64,000 nt of DNA. Source: Pararhodobacter zhoushanensis (GTDB lineage Bacteria; Pseudomonadota; Alphaproteobacteria; Rhodobacterales; Rhodobacteraceae). How positions within the stretch are numbered: the first letter of the stretch is position 1; each line of letters opens with the position of its first letter. Where the stretch lies: contig NZ_REEZ01000004.1 of NCBI RefSeq assembly GCF_003990445.1, positions 62,001 through 126,000 of the forward strand, read 5' to 3'. The notes under the pieces are model-generated. The model was not told where the DNA came from. It ran no database searches and saw only the letters and a list, made by a program, of their open reading frames with translations. Positions 30,210 through 46,520 of the stretch are shown one piece after another. Made by a program: the position numbers and the translations under genes.

Positions 30210-30235
30210 ATGAATAACATGATCATATATGAACA
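30210..30235. promoter_or_regulatory. Candidate IclR operator before the FAD monooxygenase gene
   Basis: This 26-bp element matches the one at 32317-32342 at 20 of 26 positions. It contains ATGAATA, an inverted TGATCAT and ATGAACA in the same spacing as in the other copy. Three half-sites, one inverted, resemble binding sites of PcaU/PobR-type IclR activators. It ends 17 bp before the chosen start codon. Confidence 0.65.
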
Positions 30236-30252
30236 AATCTCGCGGGGAATCC

Positions 30253-31374
30253 ATGCTTAAGATTGCAGTGTGCGGCGGCGGTGTCGGCGGTCTGTGTGCC
30301 AGCATCGCGCTGCACAAAATGGGCCATCAGGTCACGGTGTTTGAACAAACACAGCAGTTCGCCCGCGTCGGCGCCGACATCAACCTGACCCCGAACGCCG
30401 TCCACGCGCTGGACCGGCTGAGCGCCAGCGAAGATCTGCGGGTGAACGCCGCCCGCCCGACGCATCGCATCAGCCGGACATGGGACACGGGGGAAGAAAC
30501 CTCGCGCATGCCCCTGAGTGAGGCCGCCGAGACCCGCTATGGGGCGCCGTCGCTGACCGTGCACCGCGCCGACCTGCTGAAAGCGCTTGAGGTGTTGCTG
30601 CCTGAAGGGGCGCTGCGGTTTGGGGCCAAGGTTGCAGAGGTCGGGCAGGACGCTGACGGCGCGTGGCTGGTGCTGGCTGACGGCACCACGCACCGCGCGG
30701 ATGTGGTGATCGGGGCCGATGGTATCCATTCCCCCGTGCGCACCGCCGTCTTTGGCCCTGATTCGCCGCAGTTCACCGGGCTGGTGTCCTGGCGCGCGGT
30801 CTTCCCGCGCGAGCGTGGCGGGGATCTGCCGAACCTCGACGCCTTCACCAAATGGTGGGGGCCGACCAGCGACCTGCAAATCGTCACCTTCCCGCTGACC
30901 CGCGGCGAAGAGATTTTTGTCTTTGCCACCCACCGTCAGGACGACTGGGCGGAAGAGGGCTGGACGCTGCCCGGCGACATCGAAGAGCTGCGCGCCCATT
31001 ACGCCGATTTCCACCCAGAGGCCCGCGCGCTGCTGGCGGCCTGCGAAAGCGCGACGCGCTCGGCGCTGCATGTGCGCGAGCCGATGGCGCACTGGTCGCA
31101 GGGTCACATCACCCTTCTGGGCGACGCGGCGCATCCGATGGTGCCGTTCATGGCGCAGGGGGCCTGCATGGCGATCGAGGATGCGGTGGTGCTGGCGCGC
31201 GCGCTGGAAGGCGTCGATGCTGCCGGCGTCCCCGCTGCACTGACCCGGTATGAAGAGGCGCGCATCCCTCGCACCTCGGAAATCCAGCGCTCGTCTCTGG
31301 CGAATGAGTGGCTCAAGACTCAGGGCAATGCCGACTGGGTCTATGGCTATCAGGCGTGGACCGCCCCGCTTTAA
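30253..31374 (+). CDS. FAD-dependent aromatic monooxygenase, NicC/salicylate-hydroxylase type
   Basis: ATG 30253 follows GGGGA; an ATG at 30229 lies inside the operator element and is less likely. The 373-residue flavoprotein has GGGVGGLCAS (8-17, FAD), VVIGADGIHS (151-160) and LLGDAAHPMVPFMAQGACMAIEDA. The latter part, and the C-terminal DWVYGYQAW, closely recall 6-hydroxynicotinate 3-monooxygenase (NicC) as I remember it. NicC replaces a ring carboxylate with a hydroxyl. A hydroxylated aromatic or pyridine acid is therefore the probable substrate. The gene's stop overlaps that of the convergent iclR gene. Confidence 0.88.
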   Translation: MLKIAVCGGGVGGLCASIALHKMGHQVTVFEQTQQFARVGADINLTPNAVHALDRLSASEDLRVNAARPTHRISRTWDTGEETSRMPLSEAAETRYGAPSLTVHRADLLKALEVLLPEGALRFGAKVAEVGQDADGAWLVLADGTTHRADVVIGADGIHSPVRTAVFGPDSPQFTGLVSWRAVFPRERGGDLPNLDAFTKWWGPTSDLQIVTFPLTRGEEIFVFATHRQDDWAEEGWTLPGDIEELRAHYADFHPEARALLAACESATRSALHVREPMAHWSQGHITLLGDAAHPMVPFMAQGACMAIEDAVVLARALEGVDAAGVPAALTRYEEARIPRTSEIQRSSLANEWLKTQGNADWVYGYQAWTAPL

Positions 31375-32171
31375 GGCTGTTCCGTGAACCCCAGCGCCGC
31401 CGAGATTTCGGCGGCGGCTGCCTTGACCGCCTCTTCGATCCGCAGCGCCAGCGGCGTGTCGGGGGTGAACTGCGTCTCAGGCCCGGTCACGTTGATCGAC
31501 GCCACCGTGCGCCCCTGATGGTCAAAGATCGGCGCGGCGCAGGATCCGATCCCGCGCTCGAAATTCCCCGAACTCCACGCCACCCCGCGCGCCCGGTCGG
31601 CGGCGGTCTGGGCGGTCAGCGCTTCCAGCGAGCTTGCCGTCTTTTCGGTGAAAGTTTTCAGCGCGTCACCGACGTAGAGCCGCTCGATCTCGCCCTCGGG
31701 CAGCCAGCCCAGCAGCACGCGGCCGATGGTGGTGGCATGGGCAGGCAGGCGCGAGCCTTCGCGGACGTTGCTGATCAGGTGCGAATTGGGCGTTTCGCGC
31801 AGCAGGTAGATCACCTCGGTCCCGTCCAGAATGCCCAGATGCGAGGACAGCTCAAGCTGGGCCACCAGCCGCGACATCACCGGGCGCGCCACCTTGAGCA
31901 CATCGCGGGATTTGAGCGCATCGGCGGCCAGCGCGATCATGCCCGGGCCCAGCTGCCAGCTCAGCCCGTCATCCATCGACTCGATCATCCGTTCGGCCTC
32001 AAGCGTGTGCAAAAGGCGGATCAGCGTCGTGCGGTTGATGCCCAGTGCGCGCGAGGTGGCGCTGGCATTGTTGCACCGGCCCCCCGCCGCGATATGGCGC
32101 AGCAACGTAAAGGCCCTGTGAACCGGTGGCACAGAATAGTTGGTGCCGTCGCCGTCGTTCTCTTCCGTCAC
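31371..32171 (-). CDS. IclR-family transcriptional regulator
   Basis: The 266-residue protein has an N-terminal winged HTH (RAFTLLRHIAAGG, then ASATSRALGINRTTLIRLLH) and the C-terminal IclR effector domain (ATTIGRVLLGWLPEGEIERL, RGVAWSSGNFERGIGSCAAP). IclR proteins control aromatic degradation, acetate and sugar-acid genes. It sits between the monooxygenase gene and the catabolic operon. Both of those targets carry the shared 26-bp element, so it is the likely local regulator. The divergent gap to the operon is 217 bp. Confidence 0.92.
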   Translation of the reverse strand: MTEENDGDGTNYSVPPVHRAFTLLRHIAAGGRCNNASATSRALGINRTTLIRLLHTLEAERMIESMDDGLSWQLGPGMIALAADALKSRDVLKVARPVMSRLVAQLELSSHLGILDGTEVIYLLRETPNSHLISNVREGSRLPAHATTIGRVLLGWLPEGEIERLYVGDALKTFTEKTASSLEALTAQTAADRARGVAWSSGNFERGIGSCAAPIFDHQGRTVASINVTGPETQFTPDTPLALRIEEAVKAAAAEISAALGFTEQP

Positions 32172-32316
32172 GTCATGCCCCCCAAAGCTGCCTGCTCAAT
32201 AGCGGTGCCTTCGGTCTGCCGCAATTCTCGCCCGGCTGCTCAGGAACCGCGCATTGCGTGTTCCGCCAACGGCTGCACGAAAATTCTGCTTGACCGAATC
32301 CCTCGTTGCTCCAATA

Positions 32317-32342
32317 ATGAACAGCATGTTATAATATGAACA
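32317..32342. promoter_or_regulatory. Candidate IclR operator before the importer/catabolic operon
   Basis: It contains ATGAACA, an inverted TGTTAT and a second ATGAACA. It aligns without gaps to the element at 30210-30235 (20 of 26 identical) and lies 46 bp before the first gene of the operon. The rest of the 217-bp gap between iclR and 32389 shows no gene. Confidence 0.68.
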
Positions 32343-32388
32343 GTTGTGCAAGCCTGATCTGCTCGACACGCACCAAAGGAGCCACCCC

Positions 32389-32691
32389 ATGGACGCCTTC
32401 AAAGACCGCCTCTCGCAGCGTGCCCGCGATACGAGCCGTCCGGCGCTGGCCCACCAGTCTCTGGGCCGCCCGCTGACCGACGCCGAGACTGCACTGTCGC
32501 AGGCGCTGATGGCGATCATGGGCGAACGGGTGCATGACTTTGCCGAGGTTGCCAAGGAACTGGCCGCCCGCGGCGTGACAGCGCCGATCTCGGGGCGCAC
32601 CGATTGGGATCTGGCGCTGCTGACGGACGAGCTGTCGGCGCTGAACAAGGATCTGGACGCTGCCTACGCGGAGGCCGGTTATGGCGCTTGA
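32389..32691 (+). CDS. Small hypothetical protein at the head of the catabolic operon
   Basis: AAAGGAG lies 8 bp before ATG 32389. The 100-residue product is soluble and mostly helical: MDAFKDRLSQRARDTSRPAL, then LTDAETALSQALMAIMGERV, HDFAEVAKELAARGVTAPIS and an acidic end. The central FAEVAKELAARGVTAPISGR looks like a small helix-turn-helix of the kind found in resolvase C-termini. Its 3' end overlaps the ATPase gene by 11 bp, tying it to the transporter. I do not know its function; a regulatory or chaperone role is possible. Confidence 0.7.
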   Translation: MDAFKDRLSQRARDTSRPALAHQSLGRPLTDAETALSQALMAIMGERVHDFAEVAKELAARGVTAPISGRTDWDLALLTDELSALNKDLDAAYAEAGYGA

Positions 32692-33451
32692 GTTCAAAGG
32701 CGTCTCGAAAAGCTTCAACCTGGACACGGGTCAGGAGCTGACGGCGGTTCGCGACATCAATTTCAAAGTCGAAAAGGGCGAGTTCGTCTCGGTCGTCGGC
32801 CCCTCGGGCTGCGGCAAATCGACCATCCTGAGCATGACGGCGGGGCTGTACCAGCCGACCACCGGCGAGGTCCGGGTTTCGGGCGAGCTGGTCACCAAGC
32901 CCAATCCGCATGTCGGCTTCATGCTGCAAAAAGACCTGCTGTTGCCGTGGCGCACGATCATCAAGAACGTCGAATTCGGGCTGGAATCGCGCGGCGTGCC
33001 CCGCGCCCAGCGCCGCGAACGCGCCATGGCGGAACTGGAGCGCTGCCATCTGGCGGGGTTTGAGAACCACTACCCCTATCAGCTGTCCGGCGGCATGCGC
33101 CAACGCGCCGCCCTGGCCCGCACGCTGGCGATTGATCCCGACATCATTCTGCTCGACGAGCCGTTCTCGGCGCTGGACGCACAGACCAAGCTGCTGATCC
33201 AGAACTCGTTCGCCGAGACGATCATGGAAGCGGGCATCACGACGCTGCTGATCACCCATGATCTAAGCGAGGCGGTGATCATGTCGGACCGCGTTCTGGT
33301 GCTGTCCGAGCGCCCCGGCACGGTGATGTGCGAAATGCCCATCGACCTGCCCGACCGTGCGCATCCGCTCAAGCGCCGTCAGCTGCCCGAAGTGCACCAG
33401 CACGCCGCTGAAATCTTCACCTTGCTGCGCCTCGACCAGCGCGCGGCGTGA
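32681..33451 (+). CDS. ABC importer ATP-binding protein, NitT/TauT (SsuB) type
   Basis: The 256-residue ATPase has Walker A GPSGCGKST (40-48), Q-loop MLQKDLLLPWRT, signature LSGGMRQRAALARTLA and Walker B IILLDEPFSALD, followed by the switch His in LLITHDLSEA. The sequence type is that of nitrate/sulfonate/taurine importers, which also serve thiamine precursors and aromatic acids. Binding protein and permease genes follow. No thiamine biosynthesis genes or thi-box are seen, so an aromatic or N-heterocyclic substrate fits the neighbours better. Confidence 0.94.
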   Translation: MALEFKGVSKSFNLDTGQELTAVRDINFKVEKGEFVSVVGPSGCGKSTILSMTAGLYQPTTGEVRVSGELVTKPNPHVGFMLQKDLLLPWRTIIKNVEFGLESRGVPRAQRRERAMAELERCHLAGFENHYPYQLSGGMRQRAALARTLAIDPDIILLDEPFSALDAQTKLLIQNSFAETIMEAGITTLLITHDLSEAVIMSDRVLVLSERPGTVMCEMPIDLPDRAHPLKRRQLPEVHQHAAEIFTLLRLDQRAA

Positions 33452-33489
33452 TCCACCACGACCATAATAAAACCAACGGGAGTATCTCT

Positions 33490-34467
33490 ATGAAGACGCG
33501 CATTCTGGGCCTTGCCGCCGCTGCCGGCCTTGCCTTTTCCAGCCTCTCGGCCATGGCACAAACGCCGCTGACCTATCTGTTCCCGGCCCCTGACTTCCTG
33601 CCCGCCTTCGCCCCGTTCCAGCTGGCGCTGGGCAAAGGGTATTACGCCGACGCCGGTCTGGACGTGACCTTCCGCATCGGTCAGGGCGGCGCTGACGTGG
33701 CGACGCAGGTTGCTGTCGGCAACGCCCAGCTGGGCGGCGGCATGGGCGATACCGCGCTGATCGTGCGCGCCAACGGGCTGGAAGTCCGCGGCGTGGCGCT
33801 GCTGGGTGGTCAGGGCATCACCCAGATCGCGTGGCGCAATGACCGCGACATCAACGGGATCGCCGATCTGGAAGGCCGCTCGATCGGCGTCATCGGCTTT
33901 CAGGACACCACGTTCTACAACCTGCTGGCTGTTCTCGCCTCGGAAGACATCGGCCGTTCGGATGTCGATATTCAGGCGCTTGGACCGGGCGGCATCATCC
34001 AGAACATGATCGGCGGCTCGATTGACGCGATGTCGGGCGTGCCCGAGTGGATCGTCGCCATCGAAGACGCAGGCGTGCCGCTGACCGTCACCCCGGCGCG
34101 CGACTATTTCGCCTCGCAGGCGCAGGCGATCATCGCGTCGGACGCGTACATCGCTGAAAACCCCGAAGCCGTGCGCGGTTTCGTTCAGGCCACCCTGCGC
34201 GCCATCGACGACATCATCGCTGACCCGGCACAGGCCGCGCAGGACTACGTCGGCTTCCTGCCGCGCCACGCTGAAAACGTCGCCCAGATCGAGCGGATCA
34301 TGCAGATGTATGTCTCCAACGTCTATGCTCAGGATGGCGATCGTCCGATCGGTGCGTTTGACCCGGCACAGCTGCAGACCGCCGAAGACTTCTATGTCGC
34401 CAACGAATTGGTGAACGACGTCGTGCCGGTTGAAGACGCCTATACGAACGACTTCGTCACCGAATAA
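33490..34467 (+). CDS. NMT1/THI5-like periplasmic substrate-binding protein
   Basis: A signal peptide (MKTRILGLAAAAGLAFSSLSAMAQ) precedes a 301-residue mature domain of the NMT1/SsuA type: PAFAPFQLALGKGYYADAGL, VTFRIGQGGADVATQVAVGN, and DLEGRSIGVIGFQDTTFYNL. The usual order ATPase-binding protein-permease is seen. A strong hairpin follows its stop and may raise its mRNA level over that of the permease. The ligand should be the growth substrate of the pathway encoded downstream. Confidence 0.92.
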   Translation: MKTRILGLAAAAGLAFSSLSAMAQTPLTYLFPAPDFLPAFAPFQLALGKGYYADAGLDVTFRIGQGGADVATQVAVGNAQLGGGMGDTALIVRANGLEVRGVALLGGQGITQIAWRNDRDINGIADLEGRSIGVIGFQDTTFYNLLAVLASEDIGRSDVDIQALGPGGIIQNMIGGSIDAMSGVPEWIVAIEDAGVPLTVTPARDYFASQAQAIIASDAYIAENPEAVRGFVQATLRAIDDIIADPAQAAQDYVGFLPRHAENVAQIERIMQMYVSNVYAQDGDRPIGAFDPAQLQTAEDFYVANELVNDVVPVEDAYTNDFVTE

Positions 34468-34492
34468 CCACCGCCTGACACTCTCAACCCTT

Positions 34493-34531
34493 CCGGTCGC
34501 TGCACCGTCACCCCTTTGGGGCGGCGACCGG
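34493..34531 (+). terminator. Intercistronic hairpin after the binding-protein gene
   Basis: CCGGTCGC (34493-34500) pairs with GCGACCGG (34524-34531) around an inner CCCC/GGGG stem, followed by AGCCTTCTT. Such hairpins between binding protein and permease genes usually protect the upstream mRNA or terminate part of transcription. Confidence 0.55.
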
Positions 34532-34566
34532 AGCCTTCTTGCCCAGCCACAAGGACCAGACCTCTC

Positions 34567-35334
34567 ATGAGCCTTGCCAAAAGCCATACCTTAGCCGGGA
34601 TCGTGATTCTGGGCGTTGTCCTGCTGATCTGGCAATTCCTGCCGCCCGCGATGGATGTGCCCAAATTCATCATCCCCACGCCGATGGACATGCTCAAGGA
34701 ACTGGGCCGGATGTACCGGCGCGAGGATCTGATCACCAACACCCTGTCCACAGCGCTTTATACCACGCTCGGCTTTGCCATCGGCTCGGCAATGGGGGCC
34801 ATCATTGGCTACCTGCTGGGCATGTCGGAATTCTGGGAGCGCGTGCTCTCGCCCTATATCCTTGCGCTGCAGATCGCGCCGAAAGTCGCCTTCGCCCCGC
34901 TGTTCATCATGTGGTTCGGTTATAACGCCACGCCCAAGCTGCTGGTCACCGTGCTGATCGTCTTCTTCCCGGTGCTGGTGAACGTGCTCGCCGCGATGAA
35001 GACCGTCGACCGCGACATGGTGAACCTGGCCCGCGCCTATTCGCTCAGCCGCTGGGAGATCTTCCTCAAGGTCGAATTCCCCTCGACCCTGCCCAACCTG
35101 ATGGCCGGTCTGCGCATCGCCTCGACCCTCGCCGTGATCGGCGTGACGGTGGGCGAGCTGGTCGGCGGCAACACGGGCCTTGGGTTCCTGATCAGCTACG
35201 GCGGCGGGCAGGCCAATGCCGCGATGGTGTTCAATTCCATCGTGCTGCTGACGCTCATCGGCATCGTGCTCTACTCGGTGCTCGCCTGGGCTGAAAAGCG
35301 CCTGCTCCATTACATCCCGAAAAAAGAACACTGA
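34567..35334 (+). CDS. ABC importer permease, NitT/TauT (SsuC) type
   Basis: The 255-residue membrane protein has about six helices. The BPD_transp_1 coupling loop is ARAYSLSRWEIFLKVEFPSTLPNLMAGLR. Other family blocks are IAPKVAFAPLFIMWFGYNATPK and VGELVGGNTGLGFLISYGGG. ATG 34567 is used because the upstream extension is polar and lies within the hairpin region. It works with the ATPase and NMT1-like protein encoded just before. Confidence 0.93.
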   Translation: MSLAKSHTLAGIVILGVVLLIWQFLPPAMDVPKFIIPTPMDMLKELGRMYRREDLITNTLSTALYTTLGFAIGSAMGAIIGYLLGMSEFWERVLSPYILALQIAPKVAFAPLFIMWFGYNATPKLLVTVLIVFFPVLVNVLAAMKTVDRDMVNLARAYSLSRWEIFLKVEFPSTLPNLMAGLRIASTLAVIGVTVGELVGGNTGLGFLISYGGGQANAAMVFNSIVLLTLIGIVLYSVLAWAEKRLLHYIPKKEH

Positions 35335-35386
35335 CCCGCGGCCAGCCATCCTAGCCCGCCGCATTCCCCAACCGCAGGAGACCTCC

Positions 35387-35956
35387 ATGAGCACCGCTCC
35401 GATGAAATTCCCCTCGATCGAACCCGATGACGTGGTCATCCCCGAGGGCAAGACGCTGGACAGCTGGATCGAAAGCCGCGTCGCACGCTATGCCTCGCGC
35501 ACGCTGGACTGGGACGCGCTGAAGTTTCAGGCCGATTTCGACCCCAAATACCGCCGCGCCCAGATGCGCTATGTCGGCACCGGCGCGACCGGCGTGTCGG
35601 ACGATGAGAACGTCGTGCCGGCCGGGCATTTCACCTTCTCGACGATGGTTCTGCCCGCCGGCTGCGAAGGCCCGCTGCACATCCACCGTGACGCCGAGGA
35701 AATCTTCTTTGTCCTCAAAGGCCACGCGATCCGCCTGTTCATCGAGCACAAGGGCGAGATGGTCGAAACCGTCCTGACCGAGCGCGACCTCCTGTCGGTG
35801 CCGCCGGGCGTCTACCGCGGACTGCGCAACGAGGGCATCGAAGAGGCCCTGCTCTGCGTGATGATCGGCAACCCCAAGCCGGTAACCCCGACCTATCCGC
35901 CCGAGCACCCGGTGTCCAAGATCCCCCGGCCCAAGGGTTCCAAAGCCGCCGGCTGA
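35387..35956 (+). CDS. Cupin-domain protein of the catabolic operon
   Basis: The 189-residue protein has one cupin barrel with the metal motif in GPLHIHRDAEEIFFVLKGHA, and a second motif around LLSVPPGVYRGLRNEG in which the usual second His is replaced. An N-terminal extension (EGKTLDSWIESRVARYASR) and a Pro-rich tail flank it. ATG 35387 follows AGGAGACCTCC. It may be a dioxygenase, isomerase or decarboxylase acting on a pathway intermediate. The missing second-motif His makes dioxygenase activity less certain. Confidence 0.82.
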   Translation: MSTAPMKFPSIEPDDVVIPEGKTLDSWIESRVARYASRTLDWDALKFQADFDPKYRRAQMRYVGTGATGVSDDENVVPAGHFTFSTMVLPAGCEGPLHIHRDAEEIFFVLKGHAIRLFIEHKGEMVETVLTERDLLSVPPGVYRGLRNEGIEEALLCVMIGNPKPVTPTYPPEHPVSKIPRPKGSKAAG

Positions 35957-35963
35957 ACCGCCT

Positions 35964-35990
35964 GTAGGGTGGGGTTCAACCCCACCTTAC
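35964..35990. repeat. Intergenic palindrome between cupin and Rieske genes
   Basis: A near-perfect hairpin built on GGTGGGGTT and AACCCCACC with a one-base centre, flanked by GTAG/TTAC. Repeats of this GTAGGGTGGG type are widespread in proteobacterial intergenic regions. It could attenuate or stabilise the operon mRNA. Confidence 0.55.
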
Positions 35991-36020
35991 GCCCCCGCAA
36001 GATTACCGAGGTTTGATCCC

Positions 36021-37067
36021 ATGACCGCTCCTGCCATCGACAAGAAAGCCCTGATCGAGGATCGCGTGAACACTGGCCTCTTGGGCCAATGGTATCCCGT
36101 CGCCAAATCGGTCGAGGTCAAGACGACCAAGCCCTACGGTACCAAGCTGCTGGGCCAGAAGCTGGTCCTGTGGCGCAAGGCGGACGGCTCTATCGCCTGC
36201 GTTGAGGATTTCTGCCCGCACCGTGGCGCGCCGCTGTCGTATGGCGAGATCCACGAGGGCAATATCGGCTGCCGCTATCACGGCGTTGTTGTCAACGGTG
36301 AGGGCGTCGTGGTCCGCGTTCCCGCCATGCCCGAATGCGCGATGGAGGGCCGCAAGGCGCTGAAGAACTTCCACGTCACCGAGCATTCGGATGCCGTCTT
36401 CGTCTACATCCCCAGCCTGACCCAGCCCGAGCCGCCCGAACTGGTGATGCCGCCGGAATTGGTGGGCGATGAATGGACCGGCTTTTTGTGCACCAGCGTC
36501 TGGGAAACCAACTACCGCTACGCGCTCGATAACCTCGCCGACCCGATGCACGGCTGTTACCTCCACTCTGAGAGCTTCACGCTGGCCTTTGGCTCAAAGC
36601 AGGACCTGATGAAGCTCGACAAGACCGACAATGGTTTCCACGTCACGCGCGTGGGACAGGTCGGCGACAATTTCGACTGGGCCGAATTCGCCGTCTTCCC
36701 CGGCAACATGTACTGCTTCCTCGACATCCCCTACCCGCCCGCCGCTGGCCCCGGTGGCAACATGCGCATCGTCGGCTTCACCACCCCGGTGGATGAGACC
36801 ACCTGCAAGGTGTTCTTCTGGCGTCTGCGCAAGGTCGAAGGGCTGGCGCGCGAAGCCTGGCGTTTCCTCTACCGCACCAAGCTGGAAGCGAACCACTGGC
36901 ACGTGCTGGAACAGGACCGCGTCATGCTGGAAGGCATGCCCGACGACGCCCGCAAGCGTGAGATGCTGTACCAGCACGATCTGGGCGTGTCGCGCATCCG
37001 TCAGGTTCTGACCCGCGCCGCCAAGGAACAGGTCGAGGCCGAGCTGAAGCAGGTGGCTGCGGAATGA
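36021..37067 (+). CDS. Rieske non-haem iron oxygenase, large subunit
   Basis: The 348-residue oxygenase has the Rieske motif CPHRG (Cys65, His67) with CRYHG (Cys84, His87). The mononuclear iron site is DNLADPMHGCYLHSE: His177, His182 and the bridging Asp174; LEQDRVML later should supply the third ligand. It belongs to the ring-hydroxylating/demethylase group that works without a beta subunit (vanillate-demethylase or phthalate-oxygenase-like). No ferredoxin or FNR-type reductase is adjacent. The adrenodoxin-like reductase and flavodoxin at 44.3-45.9 kb are the only local electron carriers. Confidence 0.93.
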   Translation: MTAPAIDKKALIEDRVNTGLLGQWYPVAKSVEVKTTKPYGTKLLGQKLVLWRKADGSIACVEDFCPHRGAPLSYGEIHEGNIGCRYHGVVVNGEGVVVRVPAMPECAMEGRKALKNFHVTEHSDAVFVYIPSLTQPEPPELVMPPELVGDEWTGFLCTSVWETNYRYALDNLADPMHGCYLHSESFTLAFGSKQDLMKLDKTDNGFHVTRVGQVGDNFDWAEFAVFPGNMYCFLDIPYPPAAGPGGNMRIVGFTTPVDETTCKVFFWRLRKVEGLAREAWRFLYRTKLEANHWHVLEQDRVMLEGMPDDARKREMLYQHDLGVSRIRQVLTRAAKEQVEAELKQVAAE

Positions 37068-37804
37068 TGCTGTCCGGTCGCACCATTCTGATCACCGGCG
37101 CTGCGCGCGGTCTGGGCCGTGCGCTGGCGCAGGGCTGCGCGGCCGAGGGCGCGCGGCTGGTGCTGGCGGACATCGACGCCGAGGGCGTCGCCGCCGCTGC
37201 CGCCGAGCTGGGCGCACGCGCCGTGACGGTGGATCTGGGCGATCCGGCCAGCATCACCGCGCTGGCCGACGATATCGCCGCGACCGAGGGCGAGTTGCAG
37301 GGGCTGGTGAACAATGGCGCGGTGGCGACCAATGTGGGCGGCATGGCGTTCGAGGATATCGAGCTGGAGCTGTGGGACCGCGTTCAGCGCGTCAATGTGC
37401 GCGGCACCTGGCTGATGACCCGCGCCTGCTCGGCGATGCTGCGCGCCAGTGGGTCGGGCCGGGTGGTTAACGTCGCCTCGGACACTGCCCTGTGGGGCGC
37501 ACCGCGCCTGCTGGCCTATACCGCCTCGAAAGGTGCGGTGATGGCGATGACCCGCTCGCTGGCGCGCGAGATGGGTTCGGACCGCGTGGGCGTGACCTGC
37601 ATCGCGCCGGGCATCCTGACCACCGAAAGCACCGAATACGTCCCCACCGCGCGTCATTCCCTTTACCAAGATGGCCGCGCCGTCCCCGGCCCCCAATCGG
37701 CAGCCGAAGTAACGGGCACCGTCGCGTTCCTGCTGTCCGAGGCCGCCCTGACGCTGACCGGGCAAGTGATGCCGGTCAACAACGGCTACGTGTTCGTCAC
37801 ATGA
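37064..37804 (+). CDS. Short-chain dehydrogenase/reductase (first)
   Basis: The 246-residue classical SDR has the cofactor motif TILITGAARGLGRALAQGCA, an acidic Asp at the end of strand 2 (LVLADIDAEG) favouring NAD+, NNGA, and the catalytic Ser-Tyr-Lys in NVASDTALWGAPRLLAYTASKGA. It overlaps the Rieske gene by ATGA and the hydrolase gene likewise. It may rearomatise a Rieske cis-diol product or oxidise a side-chain alcohol. Confidence 0.92.
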   Translation: MMLSGRTILITGAARGLGRALAQGCAAEGARLVLADIDAEGVAAAAAELGARAVTVDLGDPASITALADDIAATEGELQGLVNNGAVATNVGGMAFEDIELELWDRVQRVNVRGTWLMTRACSAMLRASGSGRVVNVASDTALWGAPRLLAYTASKGAVMAMTRSLAREMGSDRVGVTCIAPGILTTESTEYVPTARHSLYQDGRAVPGPQSAAEVTGTVAFLLSEAALTLTGQVMPVNNGYVFVT

Positions 37805-39521: not shown

Positions 39522-39522
39522 G

Positions 39523-40311
39523 ATGACCAAACCGTATGAAGGACAGGTTGCCGTCGTTACCGGCGGTTCCTCGGGGATCGGGCTGGCCGCGGTGCGGCTG
39601 CTGCTGGAACAGGGCGCGAAAGTGGCCTTCTGTGCGCGCGGCGAGGGGCGTCTGGCTGATGTCGCCGCCGTGCTGGAACGCGATTTCGGCGCGGACCGCA
39701 TTCTGTGGCAGGCGTTCTCGGTGCTCGATGCCGAGGCCGTCAACGGCTTTGCGGCGGCGGTTCAGGCCCGGTTCGGCACCTGCGACCTCTTGGTGAACAA
39801 CGCAGGCCAAGGACGGGTCAGCACGTTCGAGACCACCTCGGACGACGACTGGCGCGCGGAATATGACCTTAAGCTGTTCAGCCAGATCAACCCGACCCGC
39901 GCCTTTCTGCCGATGCTCAAGGCGTCCAACGGAGCCATCGTCGCGGTCAACTCGCTGCTGGCCTACCAGCCTGAGAAACACATGGTCTGCACCGCATCGG
40001 CCCGTGCCGGTGTGCAGAGCCTGCTGAAATCGCTGAGCATCGAGTTCGCCCCGCATGTGCGCGTTAATTCGGTGCTGATCGGACTGATCGGCTCGGGCCA
40101 ATGGACCCGCCGCTTTGCCGAGCGCCCCGACCAATCCGTCAGCCGCGAGGTCTGGTACGCCGATCTCGCGCGCAACAAGGGCATCCCCTTGGGCCGCCTG
40201 GGCGACGCCAGCGAAGCCGCTGCCGCCATTGCTTTCCTCGGCTCTCGGGCCGCCAGTTACATCACCGGGGCTCAGCTTGAAGTCTCGGGCGGCCTGTCGC
40301 GCCATATTTGA
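39523..40311 (+). CDS. Short-chain dehydrogenase/reductase (second)
   Basis: The 262-residue SDR has VAVVTGGSSGIGLAAVRLLL, CARGEGRL at the end of strand 2 (Arg, so NADP(H) is possible), NNAG and AVNSLLAYQPEKHMVCTASARAG. In the catalytic region the usual YXXXK reads with TASAR, so Tyr and Lys are not in their standard places. It may be catalytically altered or use another residue. It lies between the extradiol dioxygenase and the ThDP enzyme. Confidence 0.87.
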   Translation: MTKPYEGQVAVVTGGSSGIGLAAVRLLLEQGAKVAFCARGEGRLADVAAVLERDFGADRILWQAFSVLDAEAVNGFAAAVQARFGTCDLLVNNAGQGRVSTFETTSDDDWRAEYDLKLFSQINPTRAFLPMLKASNGAIVAVNSLLAYQPEKHMVCTASARAGVQSLLKSLSIEFAPHVRVNSVLIGLIGSGQWTRRFAERPDQSVSREVWYADLARNKGIPLGRLGDASEAAAAIAFLGSRAASYITGAQLEVSGGLSRHI

Positions 40312-40329
40312 TTGCCAAGGATCATGGAC

Positions 40330-42003
40330 ATGAAACTCGAACCCATTGCCCAGACGGAAACCGTTGGCGACTTCATCGCGCGCTATCTGGCCGAGATCGG
40401 CGTGACCACGATGTTCGGCGTGATCTCGATCCACAACATGCCGATTCTGGACGCGATAGCACGGCAGGGCGTCATCCGCTTTGTGCCCGCACGCGGCGAA
40501 TCCGGCGCGATGAGCATGGCGGATGCCTGGGCGCGGGTATCGGGCGAGATGGGCGTGGTGATCACCTCGACCGGGACCGCTGCGGGCAATGCCGCTGGCG
40601 CGCAGGTCGAGGCGCTGACGGCAGGCACGCCGCTGTTGCACATCACCGCCACCGTCGATCTGGGCTTTGCCGACCGCGACCGCGCGCCGATCCATGACGT
40701 GCCGCGCCAGCCGGATATGCTCAAGGGCATCTCAAAGGCCTATTACCGCCTGTGGAGCGCCGATTCCGCCATTGGCACCCTGACCGCTGCGGTTTCGGCG
40801 GCGATCAGCGCGCCCACCGGCCCGGTGACGCTGGAAATCCCGGTCGATGTGCAACGCGCCAAGGCCGCCGGGGCGACCCGCATTTTCAAGCCGCAACCCC
40901 AGCGGCCGCAAGCGAGCGACGACGCCGTGGCCGCACTCGCTGCCTTGCTGATCGAAGCCAAGCGCCCGATCCTGTGGCTGGGCGGCGGCGCGCGCCACGC
41001 CAGCGCCGAGGCGACCGAACTGGTGCGGCGTGGCTGCGCCGTGGTCACCTCGACCAACGGGCGCGCCACGGTGTCCGAACAGAATCCGGCCAATCTGGGT
41101 GCGTTCAACATGACGCCCGAGGCGCAGGCACTCTATGCCTCGTCCGATCTGATGATCGTCGTCGGCTCGCGCCTGCGCGGCAACGAGACGCTGAACAACG
41201 CGATGCGCCTGCCGCGCCCGCTGGCGCAGATCGACGCCGAGGCCTCACAGGGTGGCCGCAACTACCCGGTCGAGCTGTTCGTGCATGGTGATTCCGCCGA
41301 CACGCTGCGCCGCTTGCTGGCGCTGTTGCCCGAGAAACTGGACGTCGATCCGCAACTGAGCTTCGACGTCGCCACCGCCCGCGCCACAGCTGAGGGGCGT
41401 CTGCGCGCGCAGATGGGGCCGTATCAGGTGGTTGCCGATGCGTTGCTGGAGCGTGTCGCGCCCGGTCGCCATGCGTGGGTGCGTGATGTGACGATCTCGA
41501 ACTCGACCTTCGGCAACCGCTACGTCGGCTTTGCCGAGCCGCGTCACGGCGTTCACGCGCTGGGCGGCGGCATCGGTCAGGGCGTGGCCATGGGGGTCGG
41601 CGCGGCGCTGGCCAGCGACGGGCCCAAGGCGATCACGCTTCTGGGTGACGGCGGCACGCAGCTGGGCATCGCCGAGATGATCACCGCCGTACAGGAAAAC
41701 GCGCCGGTGGTATTCCTGCTGATGAACGATCAGGCGTATGGCGTGATCAAGAACATCCAGGACGCGCAATACGACAGTCGCTATCACTATTCGGCGCTGC
41801 AAACCCCTGATTTCAAGGCGCATTGCGCCTCGATCAACCTGCCGCATACCCTCGTTTCGGATGTGAACGACTTCGCTGCGACGCTGGATGCCGCGCTTGC
41901 TGCCCCCGGCCCGCGCCTGATCGAAGTGGACATGATCGCCATCGGTCCGTTTGGCGAGACCTTCTCGGGCCCGCCCGCAGGCGCTGCCGGAAACAAGGTC
42001 TGA
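40330..42003 (+). CDS. Thiamine-diphosphate-dependent lyase/decarboxylase
   Basis: ATG 40330 is chosen because AAGGA sits 8 bp upstream; the nearer ATG at 40324 would leave only 2 bp. The 557-residue enzyme follows the acetolactate synthase/benzoylformate decarboxylase plan. The catalytic Glu57 is in FVPARGESGAMSMADAWAR and the ThDP-Mg motif runs from GDGGTQLGIAEM to LLMNDQAYG. It probably decarboxylates a 2-oxo acid released after ring cleavage, giving the aldehyde for the dehydrogenase encoded downstream. Confidence 0.9.
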   Translation: MKLEPIAQTETVGDFIARYLAEIGVTTMFGVISIHNMPILDAIARQGVIRFVPARGESGAMSMADAWARVSGEMGVVITSTGTAAGNAAGAQVEALTAGTPLLHITATVDLGFADRDRAPIHDVPRQPDMLKGISKAYYRLWSADSAIGTLTAAVSAAISAPTGPVTLEIPVDVQRAKAAGATRIFKPQPQRPQASDDAVAALAALLIEAKRPILWLGGGARHASAEATELVRRGCAVVTSTNGRATVSEQNPANLGAFNMTPEAQALYASSDLMIVVGSRLRGNETLNNAMRLPRPLAQIDAEASQGGRNYPVELFVHGDSADTLRRLLALLPEKLDVDPQLSFDVATARATAEGRLRAQMGPYQVVADALLERVAPGRHAWVRDVTISNSTFGNRYVGFAEPRHGVHALGGGIGQGVAMGVGAALASDGPKAITLLGDGGTQLGIAEMITAVQENAPVVFLLMNDQAYGVIKNIQDAQYDSRYHYSALQTPDFKAHCASINLPHTLVSDVNDFAATLDAALAAPGPRLIEVDMIAIGPFGETFSGPPAGAAGNKV

Positions 42004-42007
42004 GCGG

Positions 42008-42799
42008 ATGCATCTGGGCCTGATCGGATACGGCAACATCACCCGCGCGCTGCTCGACGTGCTGGCGCGTGAGGGAGCGATGCCTGCGCGCGTCACCGTC
42101 CTGCTGCGCCCCGCACAGGCTGACGCGGCGCGCGCGGCGGGGTTTGAGGTGGTCACCGACACCGACGCCCTGCTGGCCGCGCGCCCCGATCTGATCGTGG
42201 AATGCGCCGGGCATTCGGCGGTGGCGGGAACCGTGGTGTCTGCGCTCAAGGCCGGGATCGAGTGCGTTGTGGTGTCGATTGGCGCGCTGGCGGATGCCGA
42301 TCTGCACGACACGGTGCGTGCGGCGGCCAAGGCTGGACACACGCGGATCGTGCTGCCTGCCGGGGCAATCGGCGGGGTGGATCTGTTGGCGGCGCTGAAA
42401 CCGTCGGGGATCACGTCGGTCATCTATACCTCACGCAAGCCGCCGCTGGCGTGGAAAGGCACACCCGCCGAGGGTCTGCTCGACCTGCCCGCGCTGACCG
42501 AACCGGCGACCTTCTTCACCGGCACCGCGCGCGAGGCTGCGCTGCAATACCCCAAGAACGCCAATGTCGCCGCGACGCTGGCGCTGGCGGGTCTGGGGTT
42601 CGAGGCTACGCAGGTGCGGATGGTGGCCGACCCCACGGTGGGCCAGAACATCCATGAATACCGCGTGACCTCCGGGGCGGCGGATTACACCATGCGGATT
42701 GAGGGGAAACCCTCGCCCGACAACCCCAAGACCTCGCTCGCCACGGTGTATTCGGTGGCGCGTGAAGTGATGAACCGGCTGAATGAGGTGGCGATATGA
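42008..42799 (+). CDS. Aspartate-dehydrogenase-like (NadX family) enzyme
   Basis: ATG 42008 lies 4 bp after the ThDP gene stop. The 263-residue protein has the NAD motif LGLIGYGNITRALLDVLA, VECAGHSAV, VLPAGAIGGVDLLAALKPSG and YPKNANVAATLALAGLGF with the NadX catalytic-site His in IHEYRV. NadX enzymes make iminoaspartate for NAD synthesis, but no nadA or nadC is near. In this operon it more likely deaminates or aminates a nitrogen-bearing intermediate. I recall a related AspDH-ThDP-ALDH grouping in Pseudomonas, which should be checked. Confidence 0.88.
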   Translation: MHLGLIGYGNITRALLDVLAREGAMPARVTVLLRPAQADAARAAGFEVVTDTDALLAARPDLIVECAGHSAVAGTVVSALKAGIECVVVSIGALADADLHDTVRAAAKAGHTRIVLPAGAIGGVDLLAALKPSGITSVIYTSRKPPLAWKGTPAEGLLDLPALTEPATFFTGTAREAALQYPKNANVAATLALAGLGFEATQVRMVADPTVGQNIHEYRVTSGAADYTMRIEGKPSPDNPKTSLATVYSVAREVMNRLNEVAI

Positions 42800-44286
42800 C
42801 CCATGATTTGCCCGACGGGCGGCTGTTCATCGGCGGCGAATGGGAGATCGGCACCGGGGCCGAGATCACCTCGATCTTTCCCGCCGATGGTTCGGTCAAC
42901 CGCGTACTCAAAGGGGCCAGCCGTGCCGATGGCGAGCGGGCGATTGCGCGGGCACTCAAGGCGCAGGCAGACCCGGCGTGGCGCGGCCTGAAACCGCATG
43001 AGCGTGCGCGCTATCTGCACCGCATCGCGGACGGTATCGACGCCAACGCCCAGCGCATCGCCTTTATCCAGACCCGCGACACTGGAAAGACGCTGCGCGA
43101 AACCTCGGCGCTGGTGGCCAGCGCGGCGGCGACGTTCCGCTACATGGCGGCAGCGTTAGAGACGCTTGACGACAGCCTGACCAGCCCGCGCGGCGATTAC
43201 CTGACGATGTCGGTACACGAGCCGCTGGGTCTGGTCGCCGCGATCACGCCGTGGAATTCGCCCATCGCCTCGGACGCGCAAAAGGTCGCGCCGGCGCTGG
43301 CGGCGGGCAACGCGGTGCTTCTGAAACCCGCCAGCTGGTCGCCGCTGGTCTCGCTGGAGCTGGCGCGCATCGTGGAAGAGGCCGGCCTGCCCAAGGGCCT
43401 GTTCTCGGTCCTGCCCGGCGCGGGGCGTGAGATCGGCAATCTGCTGGTCGAGCATCCCTCGATCGCCAAGGTCAGCTTCACCGGCGGCACCTCGACCGGC
43501 CGCACGCTGGCCCGGCAGGCCGCCGAAAAGCTGATGCCCGTGTCGCTTGAGTTGGGCGGCAAATCGCCCACCATCGTGTTCTCGGATGCCGATCAGGAGC
43601 TGGCCGTGGCCGGGATCCTGTTCGGGGTGTTCTCGTCTTCGGGCCAGAGCTGTATCGCCGGCTCACGCCTGTTCGTGCAGCGGGCGATCTATGACCAGTT
43701 CGTCACCCGGCTGGTCGCCGCGACCAAGGCGCTGGTCGTTGGCGATCCGCTGGACCCGGCGACTCAGGTCGCGCCGCTGGTGCATCCTGACCACCGCTCT
43801 GCCGTCGCTGCGCATGTCGCGCAGGCGGTGGAAGACGGCGCGACGGTGCTCTGCGGTGGCTTTGCGCCCGAGGGCGGGATTTACGACACGGGCAGCTATT
43901 ACATGCCCACGATCCTGTCGAATGTGACCAACACCGACCGCATCTGCCGCGAGGAAGTGTTCGGCCCCGTGCTGGTCGTCCTGCCCTTTGACGATGAGGC
44001 GGACGTGATCGCACAGGGCAATGACAACGATTATGGGCTTGCCTGCGGCCTCTGGACGCGCGATTTCCCCCGCGCGTACCGCGTCGCGCGGGCGATCACC
44101 ACGGGGACGGTCTGGATCAACACCTACAAGCAATTCTCGATCTCGACGCCCTTTGGCGGGGAAAAGGATGCTGGTATGGGGCGTGAAAAGGGACGCGAGG
44201 GGATCCGCGCCTATATGGCGCAAAAGTCGCTGTATGTGGATTTGACGGGCCGCCCGCACCCCTGGGCACGCCTGCAGGAGGGCTGA
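42796..44286 (+). CDS. NAD(P)-dependent aldehyde dehydrogenase
   Basis: The 496-residue enzyme has the catalytic Cys286 (SSSGQSCIAGS), the general base Glu252 (SLELGGKSPTIVF), the oxyanion Asn in AITPWNSPIA and the cofactor motif FTGGTSTGRTLA. The type is betaine/hydroxymuconic-semialdehyde dehydrogenase-like. It overlaps the AspDH-like gene by ATGA. It should oxidise the aldehyde made by the ThDP enzyme to an acid that enters central metabolism. Confidence 0.94.
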   Translation: MTHDLPDGRLFIGGEWEIGTGAEITSIFPADGSVNRVLKGASRADGERAIARALKAQADPAWRGLKPHERARYLHRIADGIDANAQRIAFIQTRDTGKTLRETSALVASAAATFRYMAAALETLDDSLTSPRGDYLTMSVHEPLGLVAAITPWNSPIASDAQKVAPALAAGNAVLLKPASWSPLVSLELARIVEEAGLPKGLFSVLPGAGREIGNLLVEHPSIAKVSFTGGTSTGRTLARQAAEKLMPVSLELGGKSPTIVFSDADQELAVAGILFGVFSSSGQSCIAGSRLFVQRAIYDQFVTRLVAATKALVVGDPLDPATQVAPLVHPDHRSAVAAHVAQAVEDGATVLCGGFAPEGGIYDTGSYYMPTILSNVTNTDRICREEVFGPVLVVLPFDDEADVIAQGNDNDYGLACGLWTRDFPRAYRVARAITTGTVWINTYKQFSISTPFGGEKDAGMGREKGREGIRAYMAQKSLYVDLTGRPHPWARLQEG

Positions 44287-44287
44287 G

Positions 44288-45478
44288 ATGGTGTCGATTG
44301 CAATCCTTGGGACCGGCCCGTCGGGCTGCTTTACCGCGCAGGCGCTGGTCAAGGCGCTGCCCGACGCGCGCATCGACATGATCGACGCGCTGCCGGTTCC
44401 CTATGGGTTGATCCGCTACGGTGTGGCGGCGGACCATCAAGGCACCAAGGCAGTGATCCGCCAGTTCGAGCGGCTGTTCGAGCGCAGCGATGTGCGGTTT
44501 TTCGGCAATGTCAGGGTCGGTTCCGACATCGCGCTGGATGACCTGACCGGGATGTATGACGCCGTGGTCATGGCCTTTGGCCTGCGCACGGATCGCTGTC
44601 TGGGCATTCCGGGTGAGGGGCTGGCCGGGGTCTATGGCTCGGGTCAGGTGACGGGCGCGTGGAACGATATGCCGGGTGTGGAGCCTGCGCAGATCGGCAA
44701 GCGGGTGGTGGTGATCGGCAACGGCAATGTCGCCGTCGATCTGATCCGCGTGCTGGCCAAGGGGCCGGAAGAATTCCACGGCTCGGACCTGTCGCTGGCC
44801 CATACGCAGGCGCTGATGGCGGCGGGGGTCGAGCGGATCGACGTCGTGGGCCGCTCGCCCGCCGATCAGGCCAAGTTCGACCCGGTGATGCTGCGCGAAC
44901 TGGGGCGGCTGACGCAGGCGCGTATTTCGGTTCAGGGTGCTGAAGGTGAGGGCAAACTGATCGAGGCGCTGCAAGGCATCGACGGCCACGCACCCGAGGG
45001 GGCGACGCGCGAGATCGCCTTTCGCTTCGGCTGGACGCCTGAGGCGCTGGACGGCACTGACCATGTCACCGCCGCGCGTTTCCGGCGGGGGGATGAGCAG
45101 CTGACCCTGCCCTGCGATACCGTGCTCACCGCCATCGGCTTCACTGGCGACACGCCCGCCACCGACGACGCGGGCGCGGTCAGCCCCGGACTTTATGCGA
45201 CTGGCTGGTATCGCCGGGGACCGCGCGGCACGATCCCCGAAAACCGCGCCGATGCGCAGCAGGTTGCGGCGCGGATCGCCGCTGACCTCGCCGGGACCGC
45301 GACCACCAAACCGGGCCGCGATGCGCTGAGCGCGCGCGTCCCGCAAGCCGTGACCTATGCCCAATGGCAGGCTATCGACGCCGCCGAGCGCGCCGCCTGC
45401 CCCGCCGACCGCTGCCGCCAAAAGCTGACCACCACCGAACAGATGCTGGCGACCGCGCGCCAGACAGGAGACCTCTGA
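44288..45478 (+). CDS. Adrenodoxin/ferredoxin-NADP+ reductase-like flavoprotein
   Basis: The 396-residue protein has an N-terminal FAD fold (AILGTGPSGCFTAQALVKAL), the family mark VPYGLIRYGVAADHQGTKAV, and an NADP fold VVVIGNGNVAVDLIRVLAKG. ATVDxGG-type C-terminal GWYRRGPRGTIPENRADA is the adrenodoxin-reductase signature. Its last base is shared with the flavodoxin gene start (TGATG). It probably moves electrons from NADPH to that flavodoxin and on to the Rieske oxygenase. A C-terminal tail rich in Ala and Arg is unusual. Confidence 0.9.
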   Translation: MVSIAILGTGPSGCFTAQALVKALPDARIDMIDALPVPYGLIRYGVAADHQGTKAVIRQFERLFERSDVRFFGNVRVGSDIALDDLTGMYDAVVMAFGLRTDRCLGIPGEGLAGVYGSGQVTGAWNDMPGVEPAQIGKRVVVIGNGNVAVDLIRVLAKGPEEFHGSDLSLAHTQALMAAGVERIDVVGRSPADQAKFDPVMLRELGRLTQARISVQGAEGEGKLIEALQGIDGHAPEGATREIAFRFGWTPEALDGTDHVTAARFRRGDEQLTLPCDTVLTAIGFTGDTPATDDAGAVSPGLYATGWYRRGPRGTIPENRADAQQVAARIAADLAGTATTKPGRDALSARVPQAVTYAQWQAIDAAERAACPADRCRQKLTTTEQMLATARQTGDL

Positions 45479-45924
45479 TGCAGATCGCCCTTCTCTACGG
45501 CACCGAAACCGGCAACGCTGAAATGCTGGCCGAAGACATCGCCGCGCACCTGTCGGACCACGACGCCAGCGTGACCAACCTGTCGGATTTCGACCCTGCC
45601 GATTTCGACACGGACACATTCTATATCGTCGTCTGCTCGACCTATGGCGACGGCGAGCTGCCCGCCTCGGCCCAGCCCTTTGCCGAGAAGATGGAGGCGC
45701 AGAAACCCTCGCTCGACGGGATCCGCTTTGCCGTCTTTGGCATGGGCGACAGCGAATATCCTGAGACCTACAACTTCGGCGGCAAGCGGATGGAAGAGCT
45801 GCTGGCCGGGGCCGGGGCCGAGCTGGTGGGCGAGCGCGTGACGCATAATGCCTCGGGCGACGATATGGCCGATGATCTGGCCCTGCCGTGGGTCGATGAC
45901 ATCCTCGCACAGGCGGACGCGTGA
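45478..45924 (+). CDS. Flavodoxin (MioC/CPR-type)
   Basis: The 148-residue FMN protein has the phosphate loop LYGTETGNAEMLAED, the ring-stacking loop CSTYGDGELPASAQP and FGMGDSEYPETYNFGGKRME. These resemble the flavodoxin domain of cytochrome P450 reductase and MioC more than nitrogen-fixation flavodoxins. Coupling to the reductase gene by TGATG argues for a reductase-flavodoxin pair. The track's longer frame starts inside the reductase gene and has no ribosome site. Confidence 0.92.
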   Translation: MQIALLYGTETGNAEMLAEDIAAHLSDHDASVTNLSDFDPADFDTDTFYIVVCSTYGDGELPASAQPFAEKMEAQKPSLDGIRFAVFGMGDSEYPETYNFGGKRMEELLAGAGAELVGERVTHNASGDDMADDLALPWVDDILAQADA

Positions 45925-46520
45925 TGCAGTCCGCACAGGTCCGCGACGCGCTGCAACGCCCGTGGAAACACGGCGAGGCGCTGGAGCTGGCAGGGCTGAC
46001 CCTGACCGAGCCGCTGGACCTGCGCGGGCTGACGCTGTGCGGCGTCGATTTCACCGGCGCGCGGTTTGACGGCGGCGTGCTGGCCGCAGGCGCGGTGTTC
46101 GAGGGGCTGAGCTGGTTCACCGGCGCGACCTTTGCCAGCGCCGATTTCTCGGGCGCGCTGTTCACCAATGATGCGCGCTTTGACCGGGTGCGGATCGACG
46201 GCCCCGCCCGCTTTGATCACGCCGAGTTCCGCGGCACCGCCGGGTTCCGCGCCGCCCGCTTCGCGCAGCGCGCCGACCTGTCCGCCGCGATCTGCTACGG
46301 CAACGCCGATCTGGCCGAGGCGCGCTTTGACGGCCCGACCACGCTGGTGGGAACCGAGTTTCTGGGGGGGCTGTGGGCGCAGGACACCCTCCTGCCCGCC
46401 GACGCTGACCTGTCAGGCACCGAGGTGCATGGCCGCCTCTGGCTGCGCGGCGCGCGGATCGGCAATGCCAAACTGTCCGACCGCGCCTTTGGCATGGCCT
46501 TCGGCTACACGTTTTACTGA
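45924..46520 (+). CDS. Pentapeptide-repeat protein
   Basis: The 198-residue protein is made of A(D/N)LXX-like five-residue units, for example LDLRGLTLCGVDFTGARFDG, ATFASADFSGALFTNDARFD and GRLWLRGARIGNAKLSDRAF. It would fold as a right-handed quadrilateral beta-helix. Its ATG shares a base with the flavodoxin stop, so it is part of the catabolic operon and its last gene. Some such proteins mimic DNA and protect gyrase; many have no known role. There is no signal peptide. Confidence 0.88.
   Translation: MQSAQVRDALQRPWKHGEALELAGLTLTEPLDLRGLTLCGVDFTGARFDGGVLAAGAVFEGLSWFTGATFASADFSGALFTNDARFDRVRIDGPARFDHAEFRGTAGFRAARFAQRADLSAAICYGNADLAEARFDGPTTLVGTEFLGGLWAQDTLLPADADLSGTEVHGRLWLRGARIGNAKLSDRAFGMAFGYTFY

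Follow-up and report, generated by a model that had tools for sequence, protein, structure and literature searches.

Hosts and microbes form kynurenate (4-hydroxyquinoline-2-carboxylate) and xanthurenate from tryptophan, and kynurenate has immune and neural activity. In the bacterial route given in KEGG, kynurenate is converted via its 7,8-dihydrodiol to 7,8-dihydroxykynurenate, extradiol cleavage of the 8,8a bond gives a dihydroxypicolinate with a carboxy-oxopropenyl side chain, and this side chain is then reduced, decarboxylated and oxidised to yield 5-(2-carboxyethyl)-4,6-dihydroxypicolinate. Work on this classical Pseudomonas (quinoline) pathway is said to go back to Horibata in 1961 and to Taniuchi and Hayaishi in 1963, the latter reportedly naming in their title the formation of 7,8-dihydroxykynurenate from kynurenate. 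The enzymes EC 1.14.99.2, 1.3.1.18 and 1.13.11.10, which we take to belong to the pathway, are to our knowledge without known genes. In this study, an 18-gene block was analysed in 64,000 nucleotides of Pararhodobacter zhoushanensis DNA (contig NZ_REEZ01000004.1, positions 62,001 to 126,000; the window). With chances that we judge to be even, the block is a catabolic operon for kynurenate and probably for xanthurenate. The route itself is already known, and what is new here is likely the gene set proposed for this biochemistry of the 1960s.

The classical pathway was defined by enzymology, and among the matches listed from the open-access literature neither a gene assignment for kynurenate degradation nor a characterisation of the cluster was found, although other papers may exist. 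At the family level, the island holds one candidate gene for each step from dioxygenation to aldehyde oxidation, whereas its ring-opening products are a proposal. A preliminary description of the same DNA had regarded the island as unassigned and its substrate as unknown; the first part stands for the literature in print, but classical kynurenate biochemistry fits the gene list. A wider set of claims is held jointly with somewhat less than even confidence: that the kynurenate and xanthurenate breakdown genes hitherto missing, including those for the three EC activities, are those of the island and of its relatives in Klebsiella, Enterobacter, Serratia, Acinetobacter, Burkholderia and marine alphaproteobacteria, that an aspartate dehydrogenase family enzyme (AspDH) acts as an iminosuccinate reductase recovering the ring nitrogen, and that a flavodoxin replaces the Rieske ferredoxin in some alphaproteobacterial versions, the window's included. 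If true, a named gene set in several opportunistic and environmental genera would make the kynurenate route directly testable, old enzyme activities would gain sequences, and a physiological role would be suggested for the AspDH of the carrier bacteria. According to an excerpt of PMC5610271, what becomes of kynurenate in yeast or higher eukaryotes is not known, and a degradation route has been suggested in Pseudomonas fluorescens.

Parts of the gene set occur in other described systems. The naphthalene and 3-phenylpropionate meta pathways (nah, hca/mhp) likewise combine a Rieske oxygenase, a diol dehydrogenase, an extradiol enzyme and an alpha/beta hydrolase, but the island lacks a hydratase-aldolase or C5-acid pathway, no hydratase or aldolase family being present in the listed family results of its 18 genes, and the side chain is apparently trimmed by a reductase, a thiamine diphosphate (ThDP) enzyme and an aldehyde dehydrogenase (ALDH). 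A DapA-like open reading frame (ORF), named by eye, was seen in one related locus (L155) and has no relative in the other loci scanned. With the nicotinate nic pathway the island shares a NicC-like FAD monooxygenase, but models for 2,5-dihydroxypyridine dioxygenase, maleamate amidohydrolase and maleate isomerase are absent from the Pfam matches and the best 25 NCBIfam matches listed for the 18 genes. The earlier statement that the set is unlike the protocatechuate, gentisate, homogentisate, phenylacetate and nicotinate routes agrees with the family results. The lumichrome (lum) pathway of Nocardioides, as far as described in an excerpt of PMC12746152, also applies a ThDP decarboxylase, a Rieske dioxygenase and an extradiol dioxygenase to a fused N-heterocycle, but has in addition a P450, several pyrimidine-ring hydrolases and a xanthine-oxidase-type hydroxylase, which the island lacks by family results. 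Neither a P450 nor an amidohydrolase family appeared among the family results of the 18 genes, and a riboflavin or lumichrome pathway was rejected because its gene set differs from that of the island.

Gene content and proposed route

The ORF listing and start checks gave an FAD monooxygenase gene, a convergent IclR-family gene and, to the right of the latter, a run of 16 genes on the + strand from 32389 to 46520, the whole block spanning 30253-46520; this is the layout of the preliminary description. The families of all 18 genes were named by Pfam and NCBIfam searches. Among the NCBIfam matches listed, a curated cut-off was passed solely by the second of two short-chain dehydrogenase/reductases (SDR2), the ThDP enzyme and AspDH, and the other genes are assigned at family level. 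From the Rieske gene (36021) to the end of the run, neighbouring genes overlap by 1-4 bases or are separated by gaps of at most 12 bases. These families support the earlier view of an aromatic or N-heteroaromatic degradation island with an importer, Rieske hydroxylation and extradiol cleavage. That the island degrades some aromatic nitrogen compound is very probable; that this compound is kynurenate or xanthurenate is about evenly balanced.

In the substrates and step order that we infer, the acid would be imported by an ABC transporter consisting of an ATPase (32681..33451, Pfam ABC_tran), an NMT1/SsuA-like periplasmic binding protein (33490..34467, Pfam NMT1 1.5e-36) and a permease (34567..35334, Pfam BPD_transp_1). 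The VanA_C-type Rieske oxygenase (36021..37067; Pfam Rieske 2.3e-23, VanA_C 5.7e-15) is the candidate kynurenate 7,8-dioxygenase and, fed by an FAD reductase and the flavodoxin, would form the 7,8-dihydrodiol. Its Cys/His and Asp/His positions are invariant in 11 sequences, and the closest solved relatives of the family include phthalate and carbazole dioxygenases and DdmC. The product of the adjoining gene, SDR1 (37064..37804, Pfam), is the putative dihydrodiol dehydrogenase that would rearomatise the diol to 7,8-dihydroxykynurenate.

The VOC type I extradiol dioxygenase (38607..39521) is the proposed 7,8-dihydroxykynurenate 8,8a-dioxygenase and would cut the 8,8a bond, leaving the dihydroxypicolinate with its carboxy-oxopropenyl side chain. 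In the alignment its extradiol ligand positions are complete, and H141, H196, E247 and H182 are invariant in ten aligned proteins, nine of them only 24-28% identical to the window's. The best solved match is 3b59, named by superfamily only (1.4e-51), followed by homoprotocatechuate dioxygenases. The side chain would then be reduced by SDR2 (39523..40311; PRK07062 family, NCBIfam NF005468, 380.7 bits against a cut-off of 266), decarboxylated by the ThDP enzyme as a 2-oxo-acid decarboxylase (40324..42003; PRK07064 family, NF005470, 757.2 bits against 495) and, at the aldehyde stage, oxidised by ALDH (42796..44286; Pfam Aldedh 1.5e-160). The ThDP enzyme is of the type that comprises 2-oxo-acid decarboxylases and acetolactate synthases, and the three genes are adjacent or near one another in the window and in its relatives.

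The cupin (35387..35956; Pfam and a 22-sequence alignment) and the PcaD/BphD-like alpha/beta hydrolase (37801..38610), the latter by hydrolytic C-C or amide cleavage, might open the pyridine ring to glutarate and iminosuccinate, an assignment that is a guess. The opening of 5-(2-carboxyethyl)-4,6-dihydroxypicolinate by two waters to glutarate and iminosuccinate balances atomically. Because it would yield iminosuccinate, the imine of the AspDH reaction, AspDH (42008..42799; NF009827, 260.9 bits against a cut-off of 226) is given a substrate, which it would reduce to L-aspartate. AspDH has motifs in common with TM1643, and the motif positions are at least 95% conserved with 62 relatives. The hydrolase residues S94, D214 and H245 are kept in 15 sequences. 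The cupin shares 61-69% identity with 21 relatives and has invariant H98, H100, E104 and E105; an equally invariant R144 stands at what we take to be the position of the fourth metal His of the cupin motif. Its structure model is of medium confidence (mean pLDDT 69.4). Six of 16 separately scanned loci (L017, L018, L024, L025, L029 and L034) have in its place a cupin of nearly twice the length and about 30% identity. A gene for RidA, an imine hydrolase family, lies in one relative (L035) and was counted in favour of kynurenate.

A second entry is proposed for the FAD aromatic monooxygenase (30253..31374, + strand), which may yield the same catechol, 7,8-dihydroxykynurenate, directly from xanthurenate. 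It had been called NicC-like; NicC is indeed its closest solved relative (5eow, E 3.5e-76), but no NCBIfam monooxygenase model was passed. Relatives with 55-84% identity occur in 16 of the cluster loci that were compared. Beside the Vibrio nigripulchritudo cluster no Rieske or SDR1 gene was found, leaving the FAD monooxygenase as the sole visible entry enzyme. There (L030, about 19238-20104) neither record annotates the gene, and its match is broken into two or three pieces; it is therefore probably interrupted. As one weak case, this cluster would fit a parallel entry to the same catechol, for example by xanthurenate hydroxylation.

Recurrence of the unit in other genomes

Genome contigs were scanned with the 11-sequence Rieske alignment, and the best 80 of 588 relatives were taken as a sample of close relatives; 66 of the 80 loci have full flanks, and gene presence was called by set identity and coverage thresholds. 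The Rieske oxygenase, SDR1, SDR2, the VOC dioxygenase, the cupin, the alpha/beta hydrolase, the ThDP enzyme, AspDH and ALDH were regarded as the nine core enzymes. At least eight of them are present in 55 of the 66 full-flank loci, which had been retrieved by the Rieske alignment alone (all nine in 33 loci, eight in 22 and fewer in 11). This recurrence is far beyond chance, and the core enzymes form a conserved unit. The Rieske, VOC, ThDP and AspDH-like genes do co-occur, and the preliminary suggestion of a widespread pathway is borne out by the recurrence of the core enzymes in many unrelated bacteria.

Electron supply varies among the loci. By the same thresholds, the best 80 loci have a ferredoxin (50), a VanB-like reductase (10) or neither (20), and none has a flavodoxin. 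The flavodoxin is found in the window (45478..45924; Pfam Flavodoxin_1 2.7e-30), in six of the 16 separately scanned loci (L017, L018, L023, L024, L025 and L034, all alphaproteobacterial) and in L146. Because flavodoxin appears to take the place of ferredoxin or VanB-like reductase across loci, it is proposed to be the electron carrier to the Rieske oxygenase, in a donor chain that would start from the weakly GltD-like FAD reductase (44288..45478; Pfam Pyr_redox_2 9.2e-12, NCBIfam).

With the Rieske protein as query, a plasmid collection yielded annotated clusters whose gene order resembles the window's, from Paracoccus sp. MA, Pseudosulfitobacter and Nitratireductor (77.5-81.3% identity), and rearranged ones from Caballeronia, Novosphingobium, Acinetobacter baumannii and Klebsiella pneumoniae (44-48%). 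A Rieske gene at E <= 1e-100 was present in 15 of 398 genomes of a phylum sample. In a later phylum sample, 13 of 339 genomes had a ThDP gene at E <= 1e-150; all 13 were also Rieske-positive, and in 12 both genes lie on one contig within 12 kb; the 13th genome, assembled as a draft of about 160 contigs, has them apart on two of these. G021 and G504 are Rieske-positive but do not appear in the ThDP list and perhaps were not in that sample; G021 does carry a ThDP gene. The cluster occurs in 8 of 149 genomes of the window's order and in 30 of 299 in a family sample around Acidovorax soli (G521). A Klebsiella cluster compared by megablast with 5,426 Escherichia coli genomes gave no match, the 29 records that matched the ThDP enzyme at E <= 1e-60 in a collection of plasmid records included none from Pseudomonas, and none of six pattern matches to the ThDP query in viral contigs encoded a relative.

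AspDH alone was ruled out as a marker of the cluster, with AspDH genes of Phaeobacter, Rhizobium and Paracoccus versutus standing in other contexts. On a Phaeobacter inhibens plasmid (L163), AspDH, a dihydrodipicolinate synthase family gene, transporters and a kynureninase share one region whose gene order is unlike the cluster. In K. pneumoniae strain 176 (L022, 20158-20920) AspDH is split over two frames, and in strain ATCC 13883 (L090) it is intact with 255 residues. In Caballeronia NK8 the cluster genes are present in more than one copy, distributed over the plasmids pNK84 (L033, L149) and pNK83 (L019); on pNK84 one copy adjoins an IS21 element and a partial copy adjoins a molybdenum hydroxylase gene set.

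Kynurenate weighed against other substrates

Tryptophan 2,3-dioxygenase (TDO) was sought in 53 cluster genomes or records, after removal of two genomes that had two handles with the same coordinates, and was present in 40. In one genome (G702) TDO lies about 10 bases or less from the VanB-like reductase gene of the cluster, on the opposite strand, and another (G009) has TDO and kynureninase at a distance of about 10 kb from the hydrolase gene, separated from it by other ORFs. Both cases were counted in favour of kynurenate; by a rough estimate, not a computed one, about 0.2 such near cases would be expected at random. In the window's own genome TDO is next to a kynureninase-like ORF, named by eye, on another contig, and a relative of this ORF with 46% identity is annotated kynU in Phaeobacter. 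Two cluster-positive genomes have double TDO loci (L166, L167), in which no cluster genes were found. TDO is present in 7 of 8 cluster-positive versus 83 of 141 other genomes of the window's order (p 0.10) and in 25 of 30 versus 173 of 269 genomes of the Acidovorax soli family sample (p 0.03), which gives a Mantel-Haenszel odds ratio of 3.1 (one-sided p 0.008) uncorrected for phylogeny and genome size. This enrichment was dropped as evidence for kynurenate because a control, homogentisate dioxygenase, is equally enriched.

Several results weigh against kynurenate. The control just mentioned is found in 17 of 30 cluster-positive versus 100 of 269 other genomes (p 0.03; Acidovorax soli family sample only). 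TDO is near the cluster in only those 2 of 40 TDO-bearing genomes, many of them drafts that give no distance because the genes are on separate contigs, and neither TDO nor kynureninase was seen in the flanks of any other cluster locus compared. A Streptomyces chartreusis plasmid carries ALDH, VOC, hydrolase, cupin, SDR1, SDR2, ThDP, VanB-like reductase and Rieske genes together, and AspDH was sought at this locus and not found. Candidate glutaryl-CoA genes beside the Pseudosulfitobacter cluster were rejected as support: the acyl-CoA dehydrogenase there matches other acyl-CoA dehydrogenases (best 8.7e-86) more closely than it does glutaryl-CoA dehydrogenases (8.1e-58, 4.5e-36), and glutarate is therefore left without support from neighbouring genes. 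(A CoA transferase gene is also present beside this cluster.) Genomic support for kynurenate itself is thus thin.

In Table 1 of PMC12892962, the A. baumannii genes ABUW_2942, 2943 and 2946 (ALDH, AspDH and cupin) are up by log2 2.0-2.3 under vitamin B12 and are listed with sulfur-starvation genes (ssu, tau, sfn, arylsulfatase), a co-response that kynurenate leaves unexplained. In an excerpt of PMC5757984, A1S_0956-0958 (AspDH, ALDH and ThDP) have values of 2.2-2.4, unit unchecked, among mucin-induced genes; gene order, rather than sequence, was used to match the A1S and ABUW tags to the A. baumannii cluster. For Pseudomonas aeruginosa, where the preliminary description had placed an unverified, partly similar grouping near an AspDH gene, an excerpt of PMC4938989 reports release of kynurenate that reaches up to 100 uM in a kynU mutant; possession of the whole pathway by this species would be at odds with such release.

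Among the alternatives to kynurenate, another bicyclic or monocyclic N-aromatic acid (quinaldate, indole or pyridine carboxylates) processed by the same chemistry is rather unlikely. A quinaldate entry would predict the xanthine-dehydrogenase-family hydroxylase set that stands beside Rieske, ThDP and VOC copies in Caballeronia NK8, and the closeness of the FAD monooxygenase to NicC is also in keeping with such an acid. However, the best match of this hydroxylase is 4-hydroxybenzoyl-CoA reductase (9.5e-130), quinoline oxidoreductase being more distant (2.3e-78), and the combination of AspDH with ThDP-ALDH trimming would best suit a 4-oxo-quinoline-2-carboxylate.

The meta-cleavage of a phenylalanine-like aromatic amino acid is improbable. 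Here the Rieske oxygenase and SDR1 would produce a 2,3-dihydroxyphenyl amino acid, the VOC enzyme would cut beside the side chain, and the hydrolase would free L-aspartate and 2-hydroxypentadienoate; AspDH would oxidise the aspartate, and the ThDP enzyme, ALDH, SDR2 and the cupin would handle the C5 acid. The solved relatives of the hydrolase include BphD/MhpC-type enzymes, as such a cleavage would suggest, and AspDH would be accounted for without a heterocycle. Yet the hydratase and aldolase expected for the C5 acid are those missing from the listed family results, ThDP and ALDH would have no natural job, and TDO beside the G702 cluster would be left without a reason.

A sulfur-containing substrate used under sulfur limitation, such as an aryl sulfonate, a sulfate ester or a cysteate-like amino acid, is scarcely probable, as the 16-gene run has no sulfite-handling gene by family results, the extradiol cleavage set would be superfluous for sulfonate chemistry, and NMT1 proteins have a broad ligand range. 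AspDH, the ThDP enzyme and ALDH would in this case act on cysteate via sulfopyruvate and sulfoacetaldehyde, with the Rieske enzyme desulfonating. Its main support is the A. baumannii co-response described above; the SsuA/NMT1-like binding protein, sulfatase-like ORFs (named by eye) inside or close to the clusters in three genomes from the window's family (L025 and L143 of one genome, L026, L027) and a TauE/SafE gene near the Caballeronia NK8 cluster are also consistent with it.

Island edges and neighbouring genes

The block has sharp edges, a feature beyond the preliminary description. Its right-hand neighbour, the ribonuclease D gene (rnd), was sought in ten relatives, and five of these ten sites were compared. 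In two genomes of the same genus (G825 and G826; L169 and L170), an NDUFA9-like gene and rnd are only 227 and 211 bases apart. The blastn alignment of the window flanks with these two sites ends at about 30062 and restarts at about 46627, about 16.5 kb being missing there, so that the island extends over 30063..46627. The block is a true island, present in some close relatives and absent from others, and because the alignment breaks at these two points the FAD monooxygenase and IclR genes share the insert with the 16-gene run. In a third genome of the genus (G830, L168) about 18 kb of different DNA lies between the NDUFA9-like and rnd genes, and the insertion site may therefore be a hotspot. 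At the other two sites (L171, L172) the NDUFA9-like gene was not found in the stretch compared. Shared repeats of at least 8 bases were not found at the island edges, and promoter and terminator counts are at chance (3 versus a mean of 2.4, and 10 versus 9.9).

The IclR-family regulator is encoded at 31371..32171 on the - strand (Pfam IclR_C 1.7e-39). The run opens with a small HTH_62 gene (32389..32691, Pfam HTH_62 3.8e-07), which the preliminary description had not included. It is present in all 66 full-flank loci and in 77 of all 80 loci (76 by other criteria), and this 'recombinase-like' protein, a near-constant partner of the Rieske oxygenase, might be a small subunit. The run closes with a pentapeptide-repeat protein gene (45921..46520, Pfam Pentapeptide_3 3.8e-30).

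In Novosphingobium resinovorum (L020, 166-8375) the ThDP, AspDH and ALDH genes come after genes for a TonB receptor and a GH3 glycosidase, an order that would suit a glycosylated substrate. The clusters of L025/L143, L026 and L027 have transporter genes in them or nearby as well as the sulfatase-like ORFs, and a sulfated form of the substrate is perhaps released there. Elsewhere in the window, at 14420-21271, a branched-chain-type ABC transporter set surrounds an acyl-CoA ligase-like gene, the latter named by eye.

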